Assembly: GCA_903926465.1 (NCBI GenBank)
Contig: CAIYJE010000036.1
Coordinates: 1 to 42,312 of the forward strand
Direction: 5' to 3'
Length of the DNA: 42,312 bases
Origin: an uncultured Planctomycetales bacterium
GTDB taxonomy: Bacteria > Planctomycetota > Planctomycetia > Isosphaerales > Isosphaeraceae
The notes below the pieces were generated by a model that worked only from the letters and a program-made list of their open reading frames with translations, had not been told where the DNA came from and made no database searches. The position numbers were made by a program, and so were the translations under genes. The first letter of the stretch is position 1. The number at the start of each line of letters is the position of its first letter. Shown here in pieces: positions 3,792 through 30,558 of this stretch.

Positions 3792-4448
3792 TCAGTCTTC
3801 AGCTCCAACCAGATTATTTCTGATAGCATACTTAACCAATCCGGTGATATCACGAATCTCAAGCCGTTGCATGAGCGCTGTTCTATGGGCTTCCACGGTT
3901 TTGACGCTGATCGCCAATTCTTTGGCAATCCCCTTGGTTGAAATTCCCCTCGCGATCATGATCAGGATTTGTTTCTGCCTGGGGGTGAGACGAGGAGAAT
4001 GGGGCTCTTCGATATCCGCAGACAGACGTTTATATTCTCCCACCAAGCACGCGGACACGGATGGGCAGATATAGGTTCCGCCCGCGGCCACCGCACGCAC
4101 TGCACGCGGTAATGATTCGGGGTCCTCTGACTTGAGTAGGTACCCATTAGTTCCATCAATCAAGGCTCGAGTGATCGATTCCCGTTCGGTTCGAGAAGTG
4201 ATGACCATGGAACGAGTCTCTGGGAATTCTTGAGTGACTCGTCTGATCAAGTTGTGGCCCTCGCCTGCTTCCATCGCGATATCCATCAAAAGAATTTCAG
4301 GCTGAAATTCTTGGACAAGCCTCAGGGCCTCAGGAGTAGTTCCTGCTTCCCCTACGATTTTAAGATCTTGAAATACTCCAAGAACTGTCCTGACCCCTGT
4401 CCTTATCAGAATCTGGTCATCGGCCAAAACTATTCGAATGAGTTTCAT
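3792..4448 (-). CDS. Two-component response regulator, NarL/LuxR family
   Basis: A 218-residue transcription factor. The receiver domain (about 1-120) keeps the acidic pair D10-D11, phospho-acceptor D56 (ILLMDIA), T84 and K106. A LuxR-type helix-turn-helix (about 154-216) contains LTPRQKQILIMIARG and SVKTVEAHRTALMQRL. This is the NarL/FixJ arrangement in which phosphorylation frees the DNA-binding domain. The ATG at 4448 was chosen because family members begin a few residues before the DD pair; an AGGAG lies 13 bases upstream, rather far. A GTG at 4484 would add 12 residues. No histidine kinase is adjacent, so it is an orphan here. It is convergent with the PEP-CTERM gene at 2692, and a cluster of repeated AYTACCCTGA motifs lies upstream (4743-4920), possibly its own binding sites. 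Confidence 0.93.
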   Translation of the reverse strand: MKLIRIVLADDQILIRTGVRTVLGVFQDLKIVGEAGTTPEALRLVQEFQPEILLMDIAMEAGEGHNLIRRVTQEFPETRSMVITSRTERESITRALIDGTNGYLLKSEDPESLPRAVRAVAAGGTYICPSVSACLVGEYKRLSADIEEPHSPRLTPRQKQILIMIARGISTKGIAKELAISVKTVEAHRTALMQRLEIRDITGLVKYAIRNNLVGAED

Positions 4449-4742
4449 CGACTCGATTCCGCTCCTGATTGCTGAAAACTCCACAGCAGCCCCATCAATC
4501 GCTTCCTCTGCCTGGACTCAGCCCAGGCGTTTCATGGGTCTGGATGGGTTTAACGTTGGCGGAGTGCTTTTGCTCTTCAATGGAAATGGTTAAGGACTCT
4601 CCGCGCACAGTACAACCAATCTGCCTCATCCACGCAGGACATCACAGCTTAGTTGAGGTCGCAAAGCCATCGGATCAGAATCAAAAACAGGGAAATCACT
4701 CGCAGGAACTCGGTTCCCAACCCGTTGGGCTCAGAGTTTCAG

Positions 4743-18509: not shown

Positions 18510-21395
18510 TCAGCTCGTTGAAGCAAGAGTTCGAGCAACGGTTGAATGAGAGTCCGATAGGTCCAGTGCATCGGTTTCCAATGGAATTTCATCTTGCGGC
18601 TCCTCGATGATCTGAGAATAAAACTCAAGAGAGCGTTGGGCCATCACGTACTGATCGAATTCCGTAACTGCTCGTGTACGGCCGGCTTTGACCAATCGCT
18701 CTCTCAGCCCGGACTCCTCAAGGATTCTCTTTGCAGCTGCAGCGAAGGCTAGTGAATCATTGCAAGGAACGGTTAATCCGGTTTCCTCATGTTTGCTGAC
18801 CCATGCTACGCCACTACCTGGTATCGAGGTATTGATGACAGGACACCCGCTCGCCATAGCTTCAACCTGAACCAGTCCAAATGCCTCACTGCGTTCATTT
18901 GATGGGAACCAAAGAGCATGCGCTGCTTTGTAGTAGGCGATTACATCAGATTGTTCAGGCAAGGCGCCCAGAAAATGAACCCGATCTTGCAATGTCAGAG
19001 ATCGAACGAGCTGGTTGAGTGGATCAAACTCCGGTCCAGTGCCAGCAATCAAGAGTGTTCCGGGTACGTGCTGTAGAGCTCTGATTGCAGTTTCAAACCC
19101 TTTGTAATAGACCAGTCGTCCAATCGCAAACCAGATCGGGCCGGAGTATTTCTGTTGAATCTCCAGAGCCTGTTTTTCAACTGCTTCGCTGGGTTTCAGA
19201 TAATCTTGGAGATCGATACCCAGTGGTAACGTTGAAACTCGGTCACCACACTGCTGCAATAGACTAGAACCACTAATGTAAGGGCTTGAAGTTGCGAGTA
19301 TCAACCGAGCTCGGGCGTAACATGCCTTCTCAAAAGGCCGAAATAGAAACTTTCGAACTCGTTGCTTGATCACATCACTGTGATGAGTGATGATCAATGG
19401 GCGAGAATCATTTGCAAGACTAAGAGCCAGAATCATTGACGGGTTTGGAGTATGGAGATGAATCAAATCTGCATTACAGTTGACAAGCGTGGGTGGTAGG
19501 TCAGTCAGAAGATCGAGCTTGGCAAAGCTTTTAATTCTTCGTAAACGAACCACTTCAATGGACCCGTCGGTAACGGTGTGTGTGGGTCGATTCTGCTCGT
19601 GATCCATACAGATAACTTTGACCGAACAGCCGAGTGCCGCCTGTGCCTGTGCCAGAGAACGAACCGACGTCTCAATTCCGCCTCGGGAGGGATAATAAAA
19701 CTTGCTTAAGTGAATGACGCTTCTGGGTAAAGTCGCCCTGGAAACTGGAGATCGGTGATCAGCGGGAGCCGTACCAGAAGAATATACTGAAGCGGAGATT
19801 TCTGAAAAAGAATGCGGGTGTTCAATGACCGAACCATTGGTACTTAAAAGTAAGTCTGGCTGAGTATCGACTTGATCTGCAGTACCTGGAATCGTTAGTA
19901 CAGCGTGACTATCCTGCCCCTGAGTTGCCTTGGCAATTGATAACTCTAGACGTTGTTCAATAAGTTGAATCATCTCCTGAATCGCGAGGAGATGGTTTTG
20001 CCGGTGATTTTGGTTGACCCCGGATACTCGTAAAACACCAGCTGGGCTATCTTCAAACTGCAAATTATGGATGACCGTCCATGACCGGCCTCGATGCATA
20101 CCGTTGGAACGAGTCCAAAGTGCATGAAAAACTTCACCTGCCCGGGGAACATTAATGGTGAGCTCGACACGATTAGCACCAATCTTGGCAAATTCCTCGA
20201 TCGTCGTTTGCCAAGGATCCGCCCAGTCTCGGAAACCCTGTAAATGACACTTGAAGCCCAGCGCTGTCTTTTCCCGCTGGGCTTTGGACCTGAAGGTACT
20301 AAATCGTGTTTTCAGTTGTGCATAGACCAATCGAAGCTCAGAAACACCAAATGTCCCAGACCCCACAAGGCTAACGATTGTTAATCCAAGAAAAAGTGCA
20401 CAGATGACGTCGCCATACCCTCCTCTTAAAGCCAGGCCAGCTCCGGTCGCTGCGATGGAAGATAAAGCGACACCAATCGCCAGTGCGGCACCCGTACTAC
20501 CAAATCTCTCGCGGAGTCGATGGTGAAGATGTCCTCGATCCGGCGAAAATAGTGATCGACCGGTGAGCCAGCGGCGCCCAATTGCGGCAGCCACGTCTAT
20601 GAGAGGTAAGGCGCTCAAGGAGAGGAGTGGAAGCAAGGAGAGCCTCGAATGAGTACCACCTCCACAGGCTCTCAACGAAAGAACCGCAACTACCAGTCCA
20701 ATCATCATGCTTCCAGCATCACCCATGTAGATCCTGGCTGGTGGTAGGTTGTCCGCAAGAAATCCGACCAAAGCTCCAACAAGTGCGACTTCTAATAGAC
20801 CCTCGCCATTTGAACCGGTCTGAAATGCTAGCCAGGCCAAAGTGGTACAGGCGATAAGACCCAGGCTACCACAGAAACCATCCATTCCATCAACAAGGTT
20901 GAATGCATTTATTACGAGAACGATCCACAGAAGCGCAGCTGGAGCCGCAAATCCCCCGAGCTCGAACTGGACCCCCAACAGTCCCGCGCTATCAATTCGA
21001 AGGCCAAGTGCTACTGGAATTGACGCAGCAAATATCTGACCAACGAGTTTGTATCCACCCCTGAGGCCATACAAGTCATCAAATATCCCAACGATCAGGA
21101 TCATGAAAGACCCGATTGCTAACCCGAGATAGAGATTCTTACCTGGCTCAACGTTGGCTACCGATGGTAGGAGCAGAGAAACTAAAGCCCATGAGGTCCA
21201 TGCTGCTAGCCAAACAGCAACTCCACCACCCAGTGGGATTGGAGAGATTTGCAATTTACGCGAACGGTCCGGACGATCAACAAATCCGATCGACGGCGCA
21301 ATATTTCGGAAACCCTTGATCACAATCTGTGCAAACAGAAAGGCAAGAATCGTTGCCGTAAAGTGATGGAGATTGTGCTGTAGAAACGCAAGCAT
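18510..21395 (-). CDS. Fusion: WecA/MraY-family lipid-carrier sugar-1-phosphate transferase + GT4 glycosyltransferase
   Basis: A 961-residue fusion. Residues 1-350 form a polytopic PNPT domain with KLQISPIPLGGG, the metal-binding DD106-107, NAFNLVDGMDG (163-173), MGDAGS (224-229) and HLHHRL (289-294). This is the WecA pattern for moving a sugar-1-phosphate onto polyprenyl phosphate, the first step of polymer assembly. Residues 380-485 are a soluble domain I do not recognise. Residues 558-930 are a complete GT4: YYPSRGGIETSVRSLA, LHTPNPSM, FAIGRLVYYKGF and SEAFGLVQVEAMASG with E837 and E845. The protein could start the repeat unit and add its second sugar. It begins two bases after the BY-kinase stop, with a good AAGG ribosome site, so both are one operon. 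Confidence 0.93.
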   Translation of the reverse strand: MLAFLQHNLHHFTATILAFLFAQIVIKGFRNIAPSIGFVDRPDRSRKLQISPIPLGGGVAVWLAAWTSWALVSLLLPSVANVEPGKNLYLGLAIGSFMILIVGIFDDLYGLRGGYKLVGQIFAASIPVALGLRIDSAGLLGVQFELGGFAAPAALLWIVLVINAFNLVDGMDGFCGSLGLIACTTLAWLAFQTGSNGEGLLEVALVGALVGFLADNLPPARIYMGDAGSMMIGLVVAVLSLRACGGGTHSRLSLLPLLSLSALPLIDVAAAIGRRWLTGRSLFSPDRGHLHHRLRERFGSTGAALAIGVALSSIAATGAGLALRGGYGDVICALFLGLTIVSLVGSGTFGVSELRLVYAQLKTRFSTFRSKAQREKTALGFKCHLQGFRDWADPWQTTIEEFAKIGANRVELTINVPRAGEVFHALWTRSNGMHRGRSWTVIHNLQFEDSPAGVLRVSGVNQNHRQNHLLAIQEMIQLIEQRLELSIAKATQGQDSHAVLTIPGTADQVDTQPDLLLSTNGSVIEHPHSFSEISASVYSSGTAPADHRSPVSRATLPRSVIHLSKFYYPSRGGIETSVRSLAQAQAALGCSVKVICMDHEQNRPTHTVTDGSIEVVRLRRIKSFAKLDLLTDLPPTLVNCNADLIHLHTPNPSMILALSLANDSRPLIITHHSDVIKQRVRKFLFRPFEKACYARARLILATSSPYISGSSLLQQCGDRVSTLPLGIDLQDYLKPSEAVEKQALEIQQKYSGPIWFAIGRLVYYKGFETAIRALQHVPGTLLIAGTGPEFDPLNQLVRSLTLQDRVHFLGALPEQSDVIAYYKAAHALWFPSNERSEAFGLVQVEAMASGCPVINTSIPGSGVAWVSKHEETGLTVPCNDSLAFAAAAKRILEESGLRERLVKAGRTRAVTEFDQYVMAQRSLEFYSQIIEEPQDEIPLETDALDLSDSHSTVARTLASTS

Positions 21396-21397
21396 CC

Positions 21398-24157
21398 TTA
21401 GGACTCCTGCGTGGAAGACGAGTTCATGTCTTGCTTAGGCTCAAGGATTGAATCCGAAGGAAGCTCAGCCGCTTCAATGACGGCTGGAGCTTTTTTGGTT
21501 TGATTTGTTGCGAGCTTTCCTCTTTGGCCATAGCCATAGCCGTAGCCATAGCCGTAACCGTAACCGTAACCATAGCCGTAACCATAGCCGTAAAGATTTC
21601 TTCGCGTACCACAGCCGTTGATGACGACACCCAGAAGTGGTACCCCGGCATTACCCAACAGTTCCACCGTTCGTTCAATATCCTGTCGTCGATCTTTTTC
21701 GAGTCGCACAACGAGGACCATTGCATCAACCGAAGATGACACAATTAGACAGTCTGAAACTGCAAGCAGCGGAGAAGAGTCAACAATGATCAAATCATAT
21801 TGATTTTTCAGGGAATCTAGTGTTGAGGTAAACAAATTAGACGCAAGCAATTCAGCAGGATTATTCACATCACGCCCAGCCGTCATGAGATCCAGATTCT
21901 CGATCAGTGTCGGACGAATTCCTGCATGAACCGGTTGTTCATTCTGCAGAATATCTGATAGACCTGGCCCTTGATCCATATCATAGACGTTGTGAAGTGA
22001 TGGTTTTCGCAAGTCCGCGTCCACCAGAAGGATTTTCCGCCCAGCATGCGCCAAGCTGATGGCCAGATTACTGGAGGTGGTTGTTTTCCCATCTCCAGAG
22101 ACCGGGCTGCTGACTAGAAGGATTTGCGCCTGTCGACTACGTCGGATCAGTTCCAGGTTCGTACGGGCAGATTTGTAGGATTCGGAAAGCATGGATCGGG
22201 GAAGGTTATGACTGAGCAACTCCACCTTGCCACCATCGAGCAAAATTTGCTGATTCGAAAGTTGTGGAATTGTGGCAAGAATCGGCTGATCAACTAATGC
22301 TTTAATTTCTGTCACAGACCGGACTCGTGGATCGAGCATGTCTGAGGCGTAAGCCATGCCACCGCCCAGAAAAAGTCCAAGCATGACAGCCGACAAAAGC
22401 ACCATGATTGGATTTGGCCGAATTGGTATGACGGATGTTGGGTTGATTACTTCGGCCGTGATACTTTCGTAGTTACTACCCAGTTGAGATTGTTTGAGCT
22501 GTGTGGCAACCGAATCAAACAGAGTTTGATGCCGCTCCAGATTATTATGAAGATGTTGTTCTTCAAGTTGTTCAATTTCATTCTCACGCGCTTCAGCAAG
22601 ATCCTTCTCGAATCGCTGTTCAACCTCTGTCTTCATGGTTTCAACCGCTTTCAGGCTCTGCTCTAGCGAGCTGATCAAGCGATCGTACTCGTTTTGGGAA
22701 GCAACTCCCTCTGGCGCCGTCATACGAGCGATTTCTTCATCAATTGAAACCACGGTCCTGTTATCTTCACCTTTGCTAGCCACCACCTCTTCTCTCTGCT
22801 TACGTAGGCGTTCGATGGCGTTTTTGCGCAGAACGGCAAGGTGTTCTGTCAGTGCTGCTTCTCTGGCTTCGAGTTGTACGAGGTCTAGTTCCGCTTTGGC
22901 GATCATCTCCTGCTGCTCAGCTGCCGAAGTTAGTGAATCGGCGATATGAGGCTGTCGAAGTTCCCAGTAGTTATCCAGTTTTTCTTCAAGATCGTGTTTC
23001 TCTGCTTCGAGCTTTTTATAGATCGGGTCAGATTTACCTTGAACCACACGGGAGTACTGTTCACGTTTGGTTTCGATGCCGGCAATTTGAGATTTTAGTT
23101 CACGCACGTCAGGATCGGCAAGAAAGCGAGAGTAAACAGCTTCCTGGGTTGCGGGCCGTCGGTCCTGAGCAGATCCTGCTTGACTACGCAGATGGACCAG
23201 CATGCGTTCCGCGAGTTGCCGTCTATTACGGACCAGTCCTAATTCGGCGGCAACTCGTTCTGGTGAAGTTCCCAGATCATCCGCGGATGAAATTATTAAG
23301 GGATCCTGATTCATCAATCCACGACCCCCGCCCATGCCACCAGGGACGTTTCCTCCCAGTTGCTCCAGGGCTGCCCGGATTGAGAACATGTCAACACCCT
23401 CTGCCGTCAGCTTGCGAGCAAGGTCCAATTCGGTTTTGAGTTTCATTGCACGATTGAGGGACTCATTAATGGCAACATCCCACTGGTCGAGTCTTCGTGC
23501 CAGAAAGTTTTTGGTGCCGTTGGCAAATCCAAGGGTGTTATTTTTCTCGTGAAACTCCAGATATTCTTTTTCTAATTTAACCAGCTCTAGTTGCAGTTCA
23601 TCTCGGGCATTCCCAATAAAACGAATGAGTTCATTCGAGTTTTGTTGGAACTTTTCCTTGAGATAAGTTTGATAACTTTTCGTCAGGCCGTCCATGATCG
23701 CTGTCGCTTCGGTCATGGTGTTGGCTTTGTAGGTCGCGTCGATGACGTTTGCCGAGGGGTCTGGCAGTTTGATTAATAATCCCTGGGTGACATCCGAAAG
23801 AGAAAGATCCTTGGTCTTAGCGTTCTCAATTGCCTCACTCACGATCGCCGGACTTCTCATGAGCAGCATATGGGTTGCGAGCAAACTCTTACTATTACCC
23901 GAAGAGAGTGGATCTCTGGCCGAAGCCCCACCGAGTGGTGGACGAGCGCCCTGCTGGAGAATCAGGAATCTTGCTTGCGATTGGTAAACCGTTTTTGCCT
24001 TAGCAAGATAAAGAACCGCACCTGCAAGGCAAACCAAGAGACTCAAAACGATGAATTTCCAACCACGAGTCAAAATATCGACAAAATTGCCGATGCTTTG
24101 AGTCGATGAAGTCGAAGCATTCCCTTTAGCTCGTGGGATATTTTCGAGTTTATTCAT
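21398..24157 (-). CDS. Polysaccharide co-polymerase / BY-type tyrosine autokinase (Wzc-like)
   Basis: A 919-residue inner-membrane protein. An N-terminal Wzz domain has one helix near 36-56, a long periplasmic coiled-coil region rich in Glu/Arg/Gln, and a second helix after SVIPIRPNPIMVLL. The cytoplasmic kinase has Walker A SGDGKTTTS (K691), Walker A' LLVDADLRKP (D713) and Walker B IIVDSSP (D793), the BY-kinase set. The C-terminal tyrosine cluster is eleven Tyr-Gly pairs (856-877) followed by a Ser/Thr-rich tail. Such proteins control chain length and export, cycling between phosphorylated and free forms. ATG 24157 is chosen; a TTG at 24319 would add 54 residues that lack domain features. 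It is the first gene of the polysaccharide operon. A TATAAT element plus palindrome lies about 560 bases upstream. Confidence 0.94.
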   Translation of the reverse strand: MNKLENIPRAKGNASTSSTQSIGNFVDILTRGWKFIVLSLLVCLAGAVLYLAKAKTVYQSQARFLILQQGARPPLGGASARDPLSSGNSKSLLATHMLLMRSPAIVSEAIENAKTKDLSLSDVTQGLLIKLPDPSANVIDATYKANTMTEATAIMDGLTKSYQTYLKEKFQQNSNELIRFIGNARDELQLELVKLEKEYLEFHEKNNTLGFANGTKNFLARRLDQWDVAINESLNRAMKLKTELDLARKLTAEGVDMFSIRAALEQLGGNVPGGMGGGRGLMNQDPLIISSADDLGTSPERVAAELGLVRNRRQLAERMLVHLRSQAGSAQDRRPATQEAVYSRFLADPDVRELKSQIAGIETKREQYSRVVQGKSDPIYKKLEAEKHDLEEKLDNYWELRQPHIADSLTSAAEQQEMIAKAELDLVQLEAREAALTEHLAVLRKNAIERLRKQREEVVASKGEDNRTVVSIDEEIARMTAPEGVASQNEYDRLISSLEQSLKAVETMKTEVEQRFEKDLAEARENEIEQLEEQHLHNNLERHQTLFDSVATQLKQSQLGSNYESITAEVINPTSVIPIRPNPIMVLLSAVMLGLFLGGGMAYASDMLDPRVRSVTEIKALVDQPILATIPQLSNQQILLDGGKVELLSHNLPRSMLSESYKSARTNLELIRRSRQAQILLVSSPVSGDGKTTTSSNLAISLAHAGRKILLVDADLRKPSLHNVYDMDQGPGLSDILQNEQPVHAGIRPTLIENLDLMTAGRDVNNPAELLASNLFTSTLDSLKNQYDLIIVDSSPLLAVSDCLIVSSSVDAMVLVVRLEKDRRQDIERTVELLGNAGVPLLGVVINGCGTRRNLYGYGYGYGYGYGYGYGYGYGYGQRGKLATNQTKKAPAVIEAAELPSDSILEPKQDMNSSSTQES
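21527..21592 (-). repeat. Tandem Tyr-Gly codon repeat, (YG)11
   Basis: Eleven in-frame Tyr-Gly codon pairs in the tail of the BY-kinase. Tyr is coded by both TAT and TAC and Gly by GGC and GGT in mixed order, so the tract is a degenerate hexanucleotide repeat rather than a recent perfect expansion. This suggests selection on the protein sequence. Confidence 0.95.
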
Positions 24158-24557
24158 CGTTCCTACATCCGGTGATTGAGACTGGTAGTCGATTGAGAAA
24201 GACAAAGGCTTGGGACTAGCAAGTATTCGGGGAAGTGACTGGTGAAATGCCTGAAAATCACTAATCTTCTCCCGGAAATATCCACAAAGAACACAGGCCC
24301 TCTCAGCGGGAAGGCTCAATGTATTGGTTGCGAATCAGATTGAGAGATTTACCCTCAGCGAGTAAAACACTAAAAGCACACAAGAAGATCTATCAGGATG
24401 ATCGAAAACCTTTCGGGGTACATGTCGTGCAAAGCAATCACTGCAACCATGCCACAAAACTGAATCCATTCACGTCACAAATGTCCAGCGTCGGCCGTAT
24501 CCTTCGAGAGCCTGAGATTCGTCAAGCTAGCTTCTGATTAGCAAACGCCCCCCATCA

Positions 24558-24610
24558 ATCTGGGAATTAACCTGTAAAATCGGAAAAACCCTCAGAAGCT
24601 AATCCCAGAT
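24558..24610 (-). other. Inverted repeat in the leader of the polysaccharide operon
   Basis: ATCTGGGAATTA (24558-24569) and TAATCCCAGAT (24600-24610) pair over 11 bp with one bulged A, leaving a loop of about 30 bases. It lies downstream of the candidate promoter at 24731-24736 and about 400 bases before the BY-kinase start. No T tract follows the stem directly. It could be a leader RNA structure or a protein-binding dyad. Confidence 0.4.
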
Positions 24611-24707
24611 GTTGTACTTCTTCATCAGAATGTTTCGACGAACAAAGCATACCGGACAAACTCATCCAGGAAAAATTATCCAAATCCTTGTAAGGGTGCA
24701 AGCAAAA

Positions 24708-24736
24708 TCCTTAGACGTCTAAGGAAAAATATTATA
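24708..24736 (-). promoter_or_regulatory. Candidate promoter with 18-bp palindromic operator for the polysaccharide operon
   Basis: On the minus strand a perfect TATAAT (complement of 24731-24736) is followed, five bases on, by the perfect palindrome TCCTTAGACGTCTAAGGA (24708-24725). A start about seven bases after the -10 would fall at the palindrome's edge, so a bound protein would block or gate initiation. No good -35 box is seen at 16-18 bases spacing, which suggests need for an activator or chance. The bound protein is unknown; the divergent NtrC-like protein is a candidate. Confidence 0.5.
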
Positions 24737-25654
24737 TCCTTGGTCTATCGATTTAATCCTATGAGGTTTCGTCAGACGCAAAAAGGTTTTTCTCTGATCT
24801 TTTTCGTTCTGCTTCGTAGCGTGCAGGCGGAGACCCGAGATTTAATGAACTAGTCGTCTGGACGTGGAAGTCTTTTGCCTAGATTTTGCTGGAAGGTGTC
24901 AAAAGCGGTCTTGTAAAGATCTGTCTGATAATCGAGTTCGATTGTTGATCGTTACGAGTCGAGTATTAAATCTTCCACGAGCGATCCTTCTCTGAATACG
25001 AGATGAAATCGCTAGCGAGTCGATCTTTTGGGAGATTGTCTTTGTTCGGGCCGCATCTGCGGTCAGACAGAGATTCACGAAGAATCCCTTGCTCATGCAT
25101 TGGACTATGAGGAGAATCGTGTCCGATGCGATACTGCGGTCTCCGATCCCACAATTATAACTACAAAGCTTACAGATGGGGATTGCCACCTTGGGTTGTT
25201 TCTAGTCAAGAATGGCGTTCCAGTTCATTCGTTCGAGGGTTGGATTCAGTTTACGAGGCTTACTGGTCGCTGGAATAAAATGTTCGACGAACGCTCAGGG
25301 TTTATAATTGAATTTCACTTCGATTGATGTCGATCTGCTCGAACGAATCCCTGATGGTCAAAACAGGAATTGTAGTTGCCTGAATCGAAAATAGCGGATT
25401 TGCGGGGATAGTAATGAGTGAGTTTCGGTAACGCTTGACTGTTCAACTGAAGCGTTGAGCTGTTTTGAAAGAATTGGTCTTGTGGAGAATGGTGGCAGAG
25501 TTTCCTTGAGTGTGATGGATATCCCCAACCTCACAAGCGGGTGTAAAGTCACTCTCATTTCGATGAAGTCTCAGGTTTCGGTCAGCTTTCGGAGCTCACA
25601 ATCTATTATTTCAAAAATACAGAACAAGCCTCGGCTCGCCATGAGTGAGATTCA

Positions 25655-27088
25655 ATGAAAAGGATACTTATCCTTCATCCGAGGGTTGATTTTCGATCAA
25701 TTCTTAGTTCGATGCTGGTCGACCCTGGGTATCAGTTGGATGAAGCGCAAAACGAGGTCTCTGGATTACAGATTCTGAAACAGCGTTGTTACGACCTCAT
25801 TATTGTTGGTTTTGATGACATTGTTTCTCGAGGAAGCCGATTCTTGGAGTTGCTTCGCTCAAAGTATTCCACAACTCCAATTCTGGTAGCTTGCAGGCAA
25901 GAAGATCGTGTGATTCTTGAGGCAGCGATTCGTGTGGGGGCTCACTCGGTTATTTTTCCTGCTCAGGCGGAGACGTTACGTAAGGCAGTTCTATTTGCGA
26001 TGGTACCGCGTTCGGTTGCGTTTGGGACTGAATCACCGTTTGTTGCTGATCGCCATCTTCCGGAACCGTCACGCATCCCCCGCTCTGGGCATACTCGGAA
26101 CGTTGAAAGTGGCTCCTTGTGTGCAGGTGAGTCCGATCCCCTCTTTGTGGGTCAGCACTACGCGATTCGTCATATTGTTGATTTTGTAAAGACTTTAGCA
26201 GGCTTACCACTTCCTTTTCTTGTCGTTGGAGAGTCAGGAACAGGCAAACGTCTTGTAACACAATTGCTGGCACGATCGATATCGGATGCTTGTCTTCCTG
26301 TAGTAGAGTACGACTGTGATCAGAGTCATGAGAAGTCTTTTGAAACAGATTTTTTAGGTTCGAGCCAGGATATGGTCGATCGAAATGGGCTACTTTCTCG
26401 TTCCGCTGGTGGCATTTTATGTTTGCGGAATATTTGGGCCCTCAGTAAAGCGGGTCAAGCGGTCTTGTTGGAACATGTCCAACGCTCGTTGTTAGCGAGG
26501 CACTGTGCCCATGATTCTGACCCCACAGCAGTTCGGTTGATCCTTGTCAGTAATCGAGAGCTTGCTCCACAGGTTGACTGCGGCCTTTTTAATCCTGAAT
26601 TATTTTACGCATTGGGAATCGTGGAGCTAAGATTGCCACCTCTTCGATATCGAGGGGAAGACATTCCACGACTAGCCGCACATTTTTTGCAGAAATACAC
26701 GAGATTACATCAGAAGGCGATTTTGGGCTTCTGTCCGAGCGCCTTGGAACGGCTTTCAAGTTATCAATGGCCTGGTAACGTTGCTGAACTAGAGCTCGTC
26801 GTGGAGCAAGCCGTGATTGCCTGTACCGGAATGATTATTCAGATCGCGGATATTGGTCTAAGTTCCAGTTCTTCCTGCGCGGGTGCTCTGCAAGCAAAGG
26901 TTGGCAACTCGCTCAACCTTTTGCCCCTCAAAACTGCGATTGCCGTTCCAGAGAAACGACTGATTCTGGAAGCGCTGCGAGCCATGAACTGGAACCGCCA
27001 AGAAGTTGCTCGTGCCTTGGAGTTGGATCGAACCACCCTTCACAAAAAAATGAAAAAGTATGGGATCGGATCCGACGAACTATCGTGA
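25655..27088 (+). CDS. Degenerate NtrC-like regulator: pseudo-receiver, pseudo-AAA+, intact Fis-type HTH
   Basis: A 477-residue protein with NtrC architecture. In the receiver-like region (1-115) the acidic pair is replaced by H8-P9 and the phospho-acceptor position is G52. The AAA+ region (160-400) keeps Walker A GESGTGK (192-198), but the GAFTGA loop is absent (region 235-246). Walker B reads GGILCLRN, with R258-N259 in place of Asp-Glu, the arginine-finger segment is FNPELFYAL with both Arg gone, and sensor II has A377 in WPGNVAEL. The C-terminal Fis-type helix-turn-helix (444-470, NRQEVARALELDRTTLHKK) is normal. It probably binds DNA without sigma-54 ATPase activity, like atypical family members that work with the housekeeping sigma factor. 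It is divergent from the polysaccharide operon. The ribosome site is weak. Confidence 0.88.
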   Translation: MKRILILHPRVDFRSILSSMLVDPGYQLDEAQNEVSGLQILKQRCYDLIIVGFDDIVSRGSRFLELLRSKYSTTPILVACRQEDRVILEAAIRVGAHSVIFPAQAETLRKAVLFAMVPRSVAFGTESPFVADRHLPEPSRIPRSGHTRNVESGSLCAGESDPLFVGQHYAIRHIVDFVKTLAGLPLPFLVVGESGTGKRLVTQLLARSISDACLPVVEYDCDQSHEKSFETDFLGSSQDMVDRNGLLSRSAGGILCLRNIWALSKAGQAVLLEHVQRSLLARHCAHDSDPTAVRLILVSNRELAPQVDCGLFNPELFYALGIVELRLPPLRYRGEDIPRLAAHFLQKYTRLHQKAILGFCPSALERLSSYQWPGNVAELELVVEQAVIACTGMIIQIADIGLSSSSSCAGALQAKVGNSLNLLPLKTAIAVPEKRLILEALRAMNWNRQEVARALELDRTTLHKKMKKYGIGSDELS

Positions 27089-27353: not shown

Positions 27354-27785
27354 TCAACGCAGTTGAAACCAACGCATGACTCGTTCCAGCAGGGGCAATG
27401 GTTCGATTGGCTCGGGAATATTTGCACCAATCGGGTTAAACTTATTGAACGGTCTTGTCTTGACTTTGTAGCCAGTCACTTCGAGATGCAGGCTCATAAC
27501 ACCGGCCGCATTCTCATTATGGGTGTGAATAAAGAATTGGGTTGCCATCAAGTGCGGACGTGGTGAATCACAAATCCAGCGGATGACTTCCATGCCACAA
27601 TCTGGTCGATCAATGTCAACATGAACTTCTCCACCCAGGTCGTGGTCCAGGTGTACCTCATCCCAGGGTTCCGATAATTCCCGCAAGCATTCCTCAACCG
27701 TTTGCACCCAGACTGCTTCGGGTTGGGCTTCCAGGAAGGCGAAGCCACGCTCAGGATCATCATCCAGGAACAGGATCCTGCTCAT
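27354..27785 (-). CDS. Cyclic-phosphate-processing receiver (cREC) domain protein
   Basis: A 143-residue protein with a receiver-like fold lacking an output domain. It starts RILFLDDDPERGFAFL and has HLDHDLGGE, DCGMEVIRWI and FIHTHNENAAGVM. This matches the cyclic-phosphate-processing receiver family (cREC), predicted from comparative genomics to act on cyclic nucleotides or phosphate esters and often seen near conflict systems. ATG 27785 is chosen because GGAG lies eight bases upstream; an upstream in-frame start at 27881 would overlap the previous gene. It follows the polymerase-TPR gene by 67 bases on the same strand, so co-transcription is likely, but the functional link is unknown. No nucleotide cyclase or effector gene is nearby. 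Confidence 0.8.
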   Translation of the reverse strand: MSRILFLDDDPERGFAFLEAQPEAVWVQTVEECLRELSEPWDEVHLDHDLGGEVHVDIDRPDCGMEVIRWICDSPRPHLMATQFFIHTHNENAAGVMSLHLEVTGYKVKTRPFNKFNPIGANIPEPIEPLPLLERVMRWFQLR

Positions 27786-27852
27786 CAAAGGCTCTCCGCC
27801 ATGAGTATCACTGAAATTCCAGTTTGTAGATGTGGCCAATAGCCTCGAGCCC

Positions 27853-30558
27853 TCAACCTCCTCCAGCCACGGCTTCCTCAAGGATGTCTAAGAGGCTGCG
27901 AGCTTCAGGATGATCAGGGTATTGGGCCAGCACGACGAGAATCTGCTGGCGAGCTTCATCATACCGTTGGGATTTCCTGAGGAGATCTGCATATTCGAGG
28001 CGAAGATTTGTATCCGCGTCTGCCCCCGCCTTTTGCATGGCTTGCGTGCAGGTTACTAGCGCTTCTTCGACGAGTCCCAGTTCATCTTCGAGATTCGCGG
28101 TGAATTGGAGTTCTGGAACGGAGGAAGTTGCTGATTTTCGTTCTGCTAAGATTTGCAACGCACGTTCCAGCAGTGCACGCGCTTCACCTCCTCCTCGGGG
28201 ATCGAGGATTCGCGCGGCACTCACGAGTCGTTGTGGATTATCTGGGATCAGGGTATCGGCCCATTCACGGCCGGGGAAGACCTGTACACATCGTTGGATG
28301 ATTTGGGTCAAAAACTGATCAGAAAGTTGAAGTGAGCGATGGTAGCTCGCGAGTGCTTGATCGGTTCTCCCAAATCGTAGTTCGATTTCCCCTCGACGAT
28401 ACCAGGCCCATGAGTTTGCGGGAGACAGCCAGGTGGCTCGTTCAAGGTAAGTTTCAAGTGGGTCGGCCGTTGACAGATCTTTGACATGATCTGCGATCTC
28501 AAGATGAAAATTTGGTCGTGCGGGGCTCAGGTTTCTTGCAAGCAGCAGTTGCTCAAGCCCTTTCTGGACCTGTGATCTTTGTTTTGGACTCATGGGGATG
28601 GTCAGGGGGGCGAGTGGAGCAATAACACCTACCACTTGGTCTGGATCGTCCCGATAGACGACCTGGAGTTTGGGTGCCCCTGTTCCAGAAGCGCTGGCTG
28701 CATCCGTTACCTCTACGGTTTCGTTTTCCTGTAGAGTGGAGTCTGCCTCAGGCTCGCCGATGGCAGCCAGTGAAAAATAGGCGTATGCAAGTTCCTGGCG
28801 AAGGGAGGCATTCTCTGGAGTAAGTTGAGTGGCTTGCTCGAGAAATTGTGCAGTTCGACCAAATCTTGTGAGGTCTCTTGCTTTTTCCTCGGTCCAGGCC
28901 TCAGACTCCAGCACGGCTGTTGCTCTCAGGCGATTGGATTCCATGCGGATCCAGTCATCGTAGACAACCAAAAATCCAGTCGAGATGCCGGTGAGTCCAA
29001 TCAGGCCGGCTTTTGCCAAAGCCAGTGGATTTTGCCTGCGCACTGTTTGCGAATCATGGAGGTTTTTCAATGTGATTGTTGTCTTTTGCGGCTTGCCTTG
29101 AGCGCAGAGATGCGCTGAGATTACGGCAGACAGAGCTGCGATGGATGGTGCTTGCATCCCGAAGTCCGTTACCGAATGAAAAGCCACGCACAGAAAACTA
29201 ACAATGGCTCCCAGTACGATACCCCCATCCGAATCCAATCGTTGAGAACGGACGGTACCTAATCCAGCTCGAAAGATCAGAAAGACAAGAGCCAGGCCGA
29301 TGATACCACCGGGCAAACCGGCTTCGACGAGAAGTTGAAGATACTCATTGTGCGCGTGTTCATAGATCGTCGTATAACTAGTATCTTCAAGGCGTTTAAA
29401 GGTTTCCGCATACTCAAAGGTTCCGAAGCCTGTGCCCAGCACTGGAAAGTCGGCGAAGATACGAAGGCATCGGGCCCAGAGCGGTAATCGACCTTCACGT
29501 GATGCCACTTCATCGGGATCCATGGATTGGATCCGGGAGAGGACCTGCTCGTAACCGATCCAGCTAAGGATGAGCGCACCGACAAGTAATCCGAAGAAAA
29601 CCCCGAGGTACGCCGAAGCGCTTCCAGGTCTGGTGCGGAGAATTAACAGGCTGACGATCAAGCCCGCAGCCAGCGAGACCAGGCCACCGCGTGACAGGCT
29701 TAATAGTACGCTGATGGTCATGATCACGAGAGCAAAGATCAAGCCAATATTCTCTGCGTCCATCCAGGCAACCAGCATGCGTCTTACGGCTGCGATCCGT
29801 TGGGTTGAAGAGTAGTCTTGCCTCCTGACCGATCGCTTCTTGGTGGAGACTTGCGGTAGCCGCCCCTCAAGGCGTGAGATCAGTAGTCCAAATGTCAGCC
29901 CGAAGCAGAGGTTGGTATAGAGCGCAAAGTGGTTTCGGTTCCTGAAAGTCCCAAAACCCCCAGAACCATCATCGGATGACCAGTAGATCTGGCCTCTCAC
30001 AGAGGTGAAGAATTGAAAAATTGCAAATAGGCTAGTCAGGGTTCCGGTAATCAAGGCCGCAATGGCCAGGCGGCGAAGGGTGCCCTTAGCTGTCAGGTTT
30101 GACAAGGTAACGCAGAAAACAAGCAAAAGTGACAAAACTCGGAGTAAGAAGAGCCAGGTATCGTCTGAGTCCAAGCTGATTGTGTTACCGGAAGGAGCCA
30201 GTAGAGCCTGCTCCATTACCGGAGTTGAGACTGTTTCAAGATGCGTTGGGAGGGTTCGATTATAGATGAGATTGGTGGTGGGAGAGATGAGGGCGATCAA
30301 GTTTCTGGGTAGTGGAGTCATCTGTAAGCAGGCGAGGATTGCCAAGAATCCGAGCCCGTAAATCACAGGACTGGAGACCCAGATCACCCGTTTTTCGATT
30401 GCCATTCGAACCGCCCAGAGCAGCATCAGGCATGCCACTCCCACTTCCATGAGCAGGCGAACCTCGGGTAATGCTCCCCCGTAAGCCCATGGCGAGGCAA
30501 ACACCATGAGCAGAACGATCACTTCCATCAGGCTTGGGATGATTATGGGCAATGCCAT
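27853..30558 (-). CDS. O-antigen ligase/polymerase (Wzy_C type) with C-terminal TPR region
   Basis: A 901-residue protein. The first half (about 1-500) has around eleven membrane helices and the Wzy_C signatures GTFRNRNHFALY, GTGFGTFEYAETF and HAHNEYLQLLVEAGLPGG; the His/Arg-rich loop is the expected catalytic face outside the membrane. The C-terminal part (about 560-890) reads as helical repeats with TPR-like spacing, such as SWAWYRRGEIELRFGRTDQAL and YPDHPEARSLLDILEE. This domain order is known for ligases or polymerases that transfer glycans to proteins or lipids. The start was taken at ATG 30558; TTG 30573 would add five residues. It lies outside the main cluster, beyond the NtrC-like gene, and is the second polymerase-type protein in the window. 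Substrate unknown. Confidence 0.9.
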   Translation of the reverse strand: MALPIIIPSLMEVIVLLMVFASPWAYGGALPEVRLLMEVGVACLMLLWAVRMAIEKRVIWVSSPVIYGLGFLAILACLQMTPLPRNLIALISPTTNLIYNRTLPTHLETVSTPVMEQALLAPSGNTISLDSDDTWLFLLRVLSLLLVFCVTLSNLTAKGTLRRLAIAALITGTLTSLFAIFQFFTSVRGQIYWSSDDGSGGFGTFRNRNHFALYTNLCFGLTFGLLISRLEGRLPQVSTKKRSVRRQDYSSTQRIAAVRRMLVAWMDAENIGLIFALVIMTISVLLSLSRGGLVSLAAGLIVSLLILRTRPGSASAYLGVFFGLLVGALILSWIGYEQVLSRIQSMDPDEVASREGRLPLWARCLRIFADFPVLGTGFGTFEYAETFKRLEDTSYTTIYEHAHNEYLQLLVEAGLPGGIIGLALVFLIFRAGLGTVRSQRLDSDGGIVLGAIVSFLCVAFHSVTDFGMQAPSIAALSAVISAHLCAQGKPQKTTITLKNLHDSQTVRRQNPLALAKAGLIGLTGISTGFLVVYDDWIRMESNRLRATAVLESEAWTEEKARDLTRFGRTAQFLEQATQLTPENASLRQELAYAYFSLAAIGEPEADSTLQENETVEVTDAASASGTGAPKLQVVYRDDPDQVVGVIAPLAPLTIPMSPKQRSQVQKGLEQLLLARNLSPARPNFHLEIADHVKDLSTADPLETYLERATWLSPANSWAWYRRGEIELRFGRTDQALASYHRSLQLSDQFLTQIIQRCVQVFPGREWADTLIPDNPQRLVSAARILDPRGGGEARALLERALQILAERKSATSSVPELQFTANLEDELGLVEEALVTCTQAMQKAGADADTNLRLEYADLLRKSQRYDEARQQILVVLAQYPDHPEARSLLDILEEAVAGGG

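Follow-up and report, generated by a model that had tools for sequence, protein, structure and literature searches.

A displaced, fast-evolving duplicate of an NtrC-like protein in an Isosphaeraceae polysaccharide locus, predicted to be independent of phosphorylation, ATPase activity and sigma-54

Introduction

Flanked by a Wzc-like gene and a Wzy-type gene, the window (i.e., the whole stretch of 42,312 nucleotides analysed here, from a genome of 6.9 Mb in 207 contigs) encodes a protein, hereafter the query, that has the outline of an NtrC-type sigma-54 activator and lacks most of the residues by which such an activator works. This raises the questions of when these residues were lost, whether the gene is still maintained, and what a protein of this kind could do for the polysaccharide genes around it.

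Domain architecture and missing residues of the query

The query starts with an ATG at position 25655 and its stop codon ends at 27088. As the original prediction had it, the frame is intact, i.e., a 477-aa ORF with no internal stop. The gene and its features, all on the + strand, are as follows.

25655-27088, +: NtrC-like pseudo-activator (the query), 477 aa; ORF, Pfam, NCBIfam and PDB-chain alignments
25655-26008, +: pseudo-receiver domain, residues 1-118; Pfam Response_reg, residues checked in 35 rows
25676-25681, +: H8-P9 in place of the receiver acidic pair; alignment
25808-25810, +: G52 in place of the phospho-Asp; alignment
26228-26251, +: intact Walker A GESGTGKR, residues 192-199 (GESGTGK at 192-198); alignments
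26357-26389, +: loop GSSQDMVDRNG in place of GAFTGA, residues 235-245; alignments
26414-26431, +: degenerate Walker B ILCLRN, residues 254-259, with R258 and N259 for D-E; alignments
26591-26611, +: lost arginine fingers, N313 (26591-26593) and A319 (26609-26611); alignments
26783-26785, +: A377 in place of the sensor II Arg; alignments
26951-27061, +: Fis-type helix-turn-helix (HTH), residues 433-469; Pfam HTH_8

Profile searches of the individual domains found a weak receiver (Pfam Response_reg, 33.0 bits at a cut-off of 30.2), Sigma54_activat (70.6 bits, cut-off 20.2), AAA_lid_14 (72.5 bits) and HTH_8 (44.6 bits), and the best NCBIfam model was AtoC with 182 bits. An AlphaFold model, which was built from six sequences and serves for domain order and fold class only, places receiver, AAA+ domain and HTH in this order at modest confidence (mean pLDDT 68.3, pTM 0.50). 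A Foldseek search with this model returned Brucella NtrX (5m7p) as the top match, followed by other NtrC-family structures. Judging from Pfam, the structure model and the fold search, the AAA+ fold, the lid and the Fis-type HTH are all present.

Individual residues were placed by alignment of the query to the PDB chains 1ojl (ZraR), 4l4u and 1ny5 and to its relatives. These alignments bear out the losses that had been predicted: the receiver has neither its acidic pair nor its phospho-Asp, Walker A is kept and GAFTGA is absent against all three chains and the relatives, Walker B reads R-N, both arginine fingers are gone and an Ala occupies sensor II. They add one loss that had not been noted before, as F101 replaces the receiver Lys. 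No GAFTGA, Walker B or arginine finger was found shifted from these positions. D54, at +2 from the phospho-site, was considered as a shifted phospho-Asp and rejected, because strand and loop align ungapped to canonical receivers and because the Lys and the acidic pair are gone as well; an acid at this position (Asp or Glu) occurs in 31 of the 35 clade rows. In summary, the description of the query as an NtrC-family protein without the normal requirements of a sigma-54 activator is supported. Its characterisation as having a normal HTH holds in part. The fold is intact, and R459, T460 and K464, which we take to be the DNA-facing residues by correspondence to E. coli NtrC, match the family; N458D and Y463H adjoin them. 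However, of the 39 HTH columns with a conservation of 90% or more, 29 are retained in the query and 38 in L031, a paralogue in the same genome.

Layered losses across Isosphaeraceae

A search of 45 Isosphaeraceae genomes at E<=1e-40, among which the query's genus is represented by its own genome only, gave a match in 42; the other three genomes are 68-85% complete. We looked at a single orthologue per matching genome (34 plus 8 more, 42 in all), with L031 standing for the query's genome. All 42 lack the phospho-Asp, the receiver Lys and a GAFTGA-like loop, as does the query, and no acidic pair was seen in the orthologues examined, the corresponding columns of L026 being cut off by a contig end. 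A GAFTGA-like loop was looked for and found in 0 of the 35 clade rows and 0 of the 8 further orthologues.

As to the ATPase site, the Walker A Lys is kept in 33 of the 34 orthologues, the Walker B Asp in 23 (with Glu instead in 5 more), the Walker B Glu in 26 (with Asp instead in 6 more), the first arginine finger in 32, the second in 30 and the sensor II Arg in 20. Walker A Lys, both fingers and sensor II Arg are present in all 8 additional orthologues, whose Walker B pairs are DE, EE, DD or HD. In the subclade formed by L031, L004 and the query, Walker B has no Glu, the second arginine finger is gone and sensor II has no Arg (Ala in L031, Ser in L004). The query alone additionally lacks the Walker B Asp and the first arginine finger, and L004 has independently lost the Walker A Lys. 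Scores against the AtoC model fall stepwise, from 480 and 468 bits in canonical relatives over 280 in L006 and 204 in L031 to the 182 bits of the query. The notion that so many features were lost together therefore did not survive the comparison: the receiver and GAFTGA losses are common to all 42 orthologues, N259 and A319 recur in L031 and L004, and among the rows compared only R258 and N313 are specific to the query.

Twenty relatives from outside Isosphaeraceae were chosen from a class search and then fetched. Each of them keeps a GAFTGA-type loop (GAFTGA, GSFTGA or, in one, GAFTSA), the Walker B DE, both arginine fingers and the sensor II Arg, and 17 keep the receiver acidic pair and phospho-Asp; the three exceptions are a degenerate receiver (L116), a sequence cut by a contig end (L122) and one with a different N-terminus (L120). 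These canonical NtrC/AtoC-type activators of other Planctomycetia families (e.g. L019, L028, L109-L128) have the domain order of the query, most of them have a very similar HTH (WNRQ-TA--LGINRTTLYKKMKK), and they are the nearest non-family group in our first tree. Unlike the query, which is without the loop, Walker B, fingers and sensor II residue, they retain the sigma-54 loop and the ATPase residues in 20 of 20 cases.

Since all examined family orthologues lack both, the phospho-acceptor chemistry and the sigma-54 contact loop would most simply have been lost in the Isosphaeraceae ancestor. The losses can be put in order: the receiver and the sigma-54 loop went first, some of the ATPase residues followed, and the remainder was lost in the duplicate.

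Degenerating receivers were also seen outside Isosphaeraceae, in family f15. There, L116 has lost one acidic-pair residue and the phospho-Asp, and L112, L116 and L125 lack the receiver Lys, in each case with an intact sigma-54 loop. Receiver decay can thus precede loss of the loop.

The query as a displaced copy of a xerC-linked gene

In the first tree the query groups with L031 at a support of 99/98 (92/96 in an enlarged tree), and the pair is joined to L004 at 100/100 in both. The query's branch is 6-7 times longer than that of L031 (1.91 vs 0.30 in the first tree, 2.57 vs 0.38 in the enlarged one) and was flagged as a long branch both times. The Isosphaeraceae clade as a whole has a support of 81/100 in the first tree. 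When the enlarged tree is rooted at its midpoint, the canonical rows fall within the clade, on a long branch, and this tree came with a warning of a long-branch join with L012; we therefore base a single origin of the loss on the first tree (81/100, drawn open) and on shared synteny.

In 32 of the 34 orthologues, L031 included, the gene immediately upstream is a xerC-type gene in the same orientation (the other two are cut by contig ends). The same is true of 6 of the 8 further ones (for the other two, too little upstream sequence was fetched), i.e., of 38 of 38 testable orthologues. There is no xerC-type gene upstream of the query; the xerC-type gene of its own genome was examined with Pfam. 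Among six canonical loci with long flanks, one (L061 in G029) has xerC adjacent but convergent. Judging from the trees and the xerC synteny, L031 is the true orthologue in this genome (G000) and the query is a displaced copy, which has diverged to 38% identity overall and shares 37 of 54 HTH residues with L031.

In 11 other family genomes the search also gave twelve weaker matches; every one of them carries GAFTGA or GAYTGA and is a canonical activator, so that a second pseudo-NtrC was seen only in G000. In the class search, which scored six candidates per genome, no other genome had two matches at E<=1e-44.

Maintained regulator or redundant duplicate

On balance, we favor the reading of the query as a displaced and fast-evolving duplicate of the xerC-linked pseudo-NtrC, predicted to be a DNA-binding regulator independent of phosphorylation, ATPase activity and sigma-54, possibly of polysaccharide genes. 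The main rival is that it is a redundant duplicate under relaxed selection, heading to loss and with little or no present function. We regard this as unlikely, although several observations speak for it, beginning with the long branch of the query. Of the 119 columns with a conservation of 90% or more across 32 other members, 82 are kept in the query and 102 in L031. By domain, the query keeps 14/27 in the receiver (REC), 22/33 in the AAA+ domain, 17/19 in the lid, 29/39 in the HTH and 0/1 in the linker, and conserved columns are thus lost in every domain, fewest in the lid, with the HTH changed at 10 of 39. With L004 as reference, query-only differing sites exceed L031-only sites in REC (31:6), AAA (40:21), lid (20:2) and HTH (16:0). 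The promoter-like and leader elements of the family are at shuffle level upstream of the query (see below). Targeted loss of catalytic residues, considered as a test for adaptation, was not borne out, as the two arginine fingers make up just 2 of the 11 conserved AAA+ columns lost; a loss that is not targeted to catalysis is the pattern that general relaxation would predict.

Against relaxed selection stands, first of all, the frame of 477 codons, which is intact at 38% identity to L031. When L031 was randomly mutated to a difference of 37.5, 52.3 or 69.8%, 0 of 500 runs per level left an open frame, with a mean of 14 to 22 stops; the open frame of the query is therefore not a matter of chance, and a long-dead pseudogene is excluded. 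The differences between query and L031 at codon positions 1, 2 and 3 are 0.497, 0.375 and 0.698 over 461 codons, with second positions differing least and the third-position value being inflated by a gap in GC content at third positions (GC3). Walker A and the overall fold are retained as well. The original view of selected repurposing instead of decay fits the family, but for the query itself relaxed selection remains a competing account.

The polysaccharide locus and the region upstream of the query

The surroundings of the query comprise the following features.

18510-21395, -: WecA-like phosphoglycosyltransferase-GT4 glycosyltransferase fusion; profile matches
21398-24319, -: Wzc-like chain-length/tyrosine autokinase gene, the divergent neighbour; NCBIfam eps_fam, 174.6 bits (cut-off 108.05)
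24320-25654, no strand: intergenic region of 1.3 kb from wzc (-) to the query (+); sequence scan
24708-24725, no strand: perfect palindrome of 18 bp, TCCTTAGACGTCTAAGGA; exact copy once in the genome
27853-30573, -: Wzy/O-antigen-ligase with TPRs, on the query's other flank; Pfam

The locus also holds four glycosyltransferase genes and an HldE-like PfkB-cytidylyltransferase gene, and it encodes three proteins with a PEP-CTERM motif, of which two exceed the Pfam cut-off and one falls just short of it. With a GC3 of 0.44, the query resembles the surrounding polysaccharide genes (0.43-0.53; 0.43-0.55 for the listed genes of the whole stretch 8989-32309) and not the L031 region (0.60-0.73). In G004 (locus of L104), the wzc and wzy-type frames lie 182 bp apart with no regulator between them; this is the only one of six relative loci with both a long wzc match and a wzy-type match, the latter covering 152 residues.

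Several further details of the locus deserve mention. The Wzc-like protein carries a long GYGYGY repeat close to its C-terminus. The WecA-GT4 fusion is one frame of 961 aa, whose parts match adjacent separate places in G006, G004 and G010. A small cREC_REC (cyclic-phosphate processing receiver) gene at 27354-27881 (-) overlaps the end of the wzy-type gene. Among the PEP-CTERM genes, at 3792-4484 (-), lies a LuxR-type response regulator with a receiver well above the Pfam cut-off, which is another candidate regulator of the polysaccharide/PEP-CTERM locus.

Within the intergenic region, no sigma-54 consensus was found at up to 2 mismatches, and a sigma-54 promoter was thus rejected there; the whole window has 34 consensus matches against 24 expected. 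The missing consensus agrees, weakly, with a query that is independent of sigma-54. The palindrome had been put forward as an operator of the query. It has a single exact copy in the genome and, read on the minus strand, resembles a terminator hairpin, and for these two reasons it is no evidence for an operator. A genome scan found one other place at 3 mismatches, against 3 control matches per strand, so that the palindrome was discarded as a genome-wide operator too.

We also looked for elements shared by the family. Dyad enumeration over 20 upstream regions found no operator above shuffles. Some 9-mers did recur more often than in shuffled sequence, the best one in 6 of 20 regions where shuffling gave at most 4, and from these a promoter-like element was traced. 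In 18 of the 33 orthologues with enough upstream sequence (e.g. L006, L008, L003 and L014), an element that matches CTCARGGANGAYGNACCGGC at 14-20 of 20 letters precedes the start codon by 59-66 bases, and in many family orthologues a promoter-like TTTGACG...TGACATA stands upstream of it. L031 matches at just 12 of 20 letters, near shuffle level. A search of 8 genomes with a loose version of the element gave 27 places, the reversed control giving 1; as 6 of the 27 are at orthologues, the element is not unique to the orthologues, and it may in part be ordinary ribosome-site-plus-ATG sequence. A small ORF at this element was rejected from its frames and stops, which speak against a conserved peptide. 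Upstream of the query, the promoter-like and leader elements reach shuffle level only.

A model for the query and the remaining alternatives

How might a duplicate of this kind act? Having no phospho-site, the query would not be switched as a response regulator; having no GAFTGA, it would not remodel sigma-54 polymerase; and having neither Walker B acids nor arginine fingers, it would not hydrolyse ATP. Nucleotide may still occupy Walker A as a structural ligand. We envisage a DNA-bound dimer or oligomer that would be held together by the receiver-like and AAA+ domains and would act, as GAFTGA-less relatives are reported to do, at sigma-70-class promoters, by repression or by direct contact with RNA polymerase. 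Its likeliest targets would be the surrounding polysaccharide genes or its own promoter, which is the weakest step of the model; no operator or target turned up in the sequence scans, and control of the polysaccharide genes is plausible only from the position of the query.

A more far-reaching version, which we put forward tentatively and hold to be possible but doubtful, concerns the family as a whole. It may have turned a sigma-54 activator into a regulator independent of phosphorylation and sigma-54, with the recognition helix nearly unchanged and the operators passed to ordinary RNA polymerase. The ATPase-less duplicate would then have become a dedicated regulator of the polysaccharide locus, its AAA+ domain being only a scaffold for oligomerisation or nucleotide sensing.

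Three other explanations were weighed. The query could be a partner in mixed oligomers with L031, tuning or blocking it without targets of its own. Both proteins have the same architecture, reside in the same genome and have HTHs alike at 37 of 54 positions, and a subunit without both fingers would be expected to poison a ring. L031, however, is itself without three ATPase residues (Walker B Glu, second finger, sensor II Arg), so that little ATPase would remain to be poisoned, and we consider this explanation improbable. Marginally less probable still is a regulator of polysaccharide genes gated by a ligand such as c-di-GMP, in the manner of VpsR or FleQ. VpsR, which has a role in polysaccharide control, and FleQ both turn up in the sequence and fold searches, and the query sits in a polysaccharide locus. 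In the fold search, however, LuxO, VpsR and FleQ rank below NtrX and several NtrC-family structures, and the parent gene is linked to xerC and not to polysaccharide genes. Finally, a functional sigma-54 activator with misread motifs is refuted at the sequence level and has next to no probability: all 25 genomes searched for rpoN, the query's included, have it, but the clade rows hold no GAFTGA-like loop (0/35), and Walker B and both fingers are absent in alignments with solved structures.

Comparison with known NtrC-like proteins

The reading that we prefer, a duplicate acting without phosphorylation, ATPase and sigma-54, has partial parallels. Some of TyrR, DhaR, HupR and YplP have different N-terminal input domains, and the query stays far below the cut-offs of the TyrR model (97.1 bits vs 576) and the DhaR model (160.9 vs 551). 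GAFTGA is described as missing or defective in VpsR, TyrR, DhaR, HupR and YplP (available part of PMC3162934), and VpsR from Vibrio cholerae is, like the query, a GAFTGA-less NtrC-family protein according to the same text. It retains the conserved aspartate (available part of PMC10274813), whereas the query has G52 there. Caulobacter and Rhodobacter NtrC as well as NtrX have lost the sigma-54 loop, as has the query. According to the accessible text of PMC10274813, Caulobacter NtrC, in which GAFTGA is absent, regulates sigma-70-dependent promoters, R. capsulatus NtrC is reported to be active at sigma-70 promoters, and the Caulobacter and Rhodobacter proteins keep and use the phosphorylation site; the query, in contrast, is without all receiver chemistry and without the ATPase residues.

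The query had also been proposed to be a derived counterpart of PrsR (TIGR02915). According to the available part of PMC1569441, PrsR is NtrC-like in architecture, lies near exopolysaccharide genes, interacts with sigma-54 and usually forms a tandem with a kinase gene; the first two points are also true of the query. The query scores 138.9 bits against the PrsR model, whose cut-off is 502.6, none of the 30 genomes searched, its own included, has a match above this cut-off, and tree and synteny lead to the xerC-linked regulator instead. An origin from PrsR was therefore rejected on score and tree.

GAFTGA-less NtrC proteins are thus already known from several lineages. Among the open-access titles and abstract openings listed, none describes the pseudo-NtrC clade, and the available parts of PMC12316311 and PMC5352709 hold nothing on it. 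As far as open-access searches reach, two things are new: a family-wide protein that lacks phosphorylation chemistry and sigma-54 contact and has a near-canonical HTH, and a duplicate of such a protein without an ATPase site. The loss is common to every examined family member, sister families keep a working version and the steps can be ordered, which makes testable how a sigma-54 activator leaves sigma-54 and whether a dead AAA+ domain retains a regulatory role. In practical terms, the Pfam model for sigma-54 interaction scores such proteins above its cut-off despite the missing contact loop.

Other proteins of this kind were encountered along the way. The query's own genome encodes further NtrC-like proteins without a proper GAFTGA, i.e., L032 (C77), L033 (C160) and L048 (C67:236629). 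In Zixibacteria, L051 and L052 have a normal acidic pair and phospho-Asp and no GAFTGA, with Ala replacing both the second arginine finger and the sensor II residue; the set is convergent, though its sensor II residue is biased by retrieval with patterns that included this Ala.
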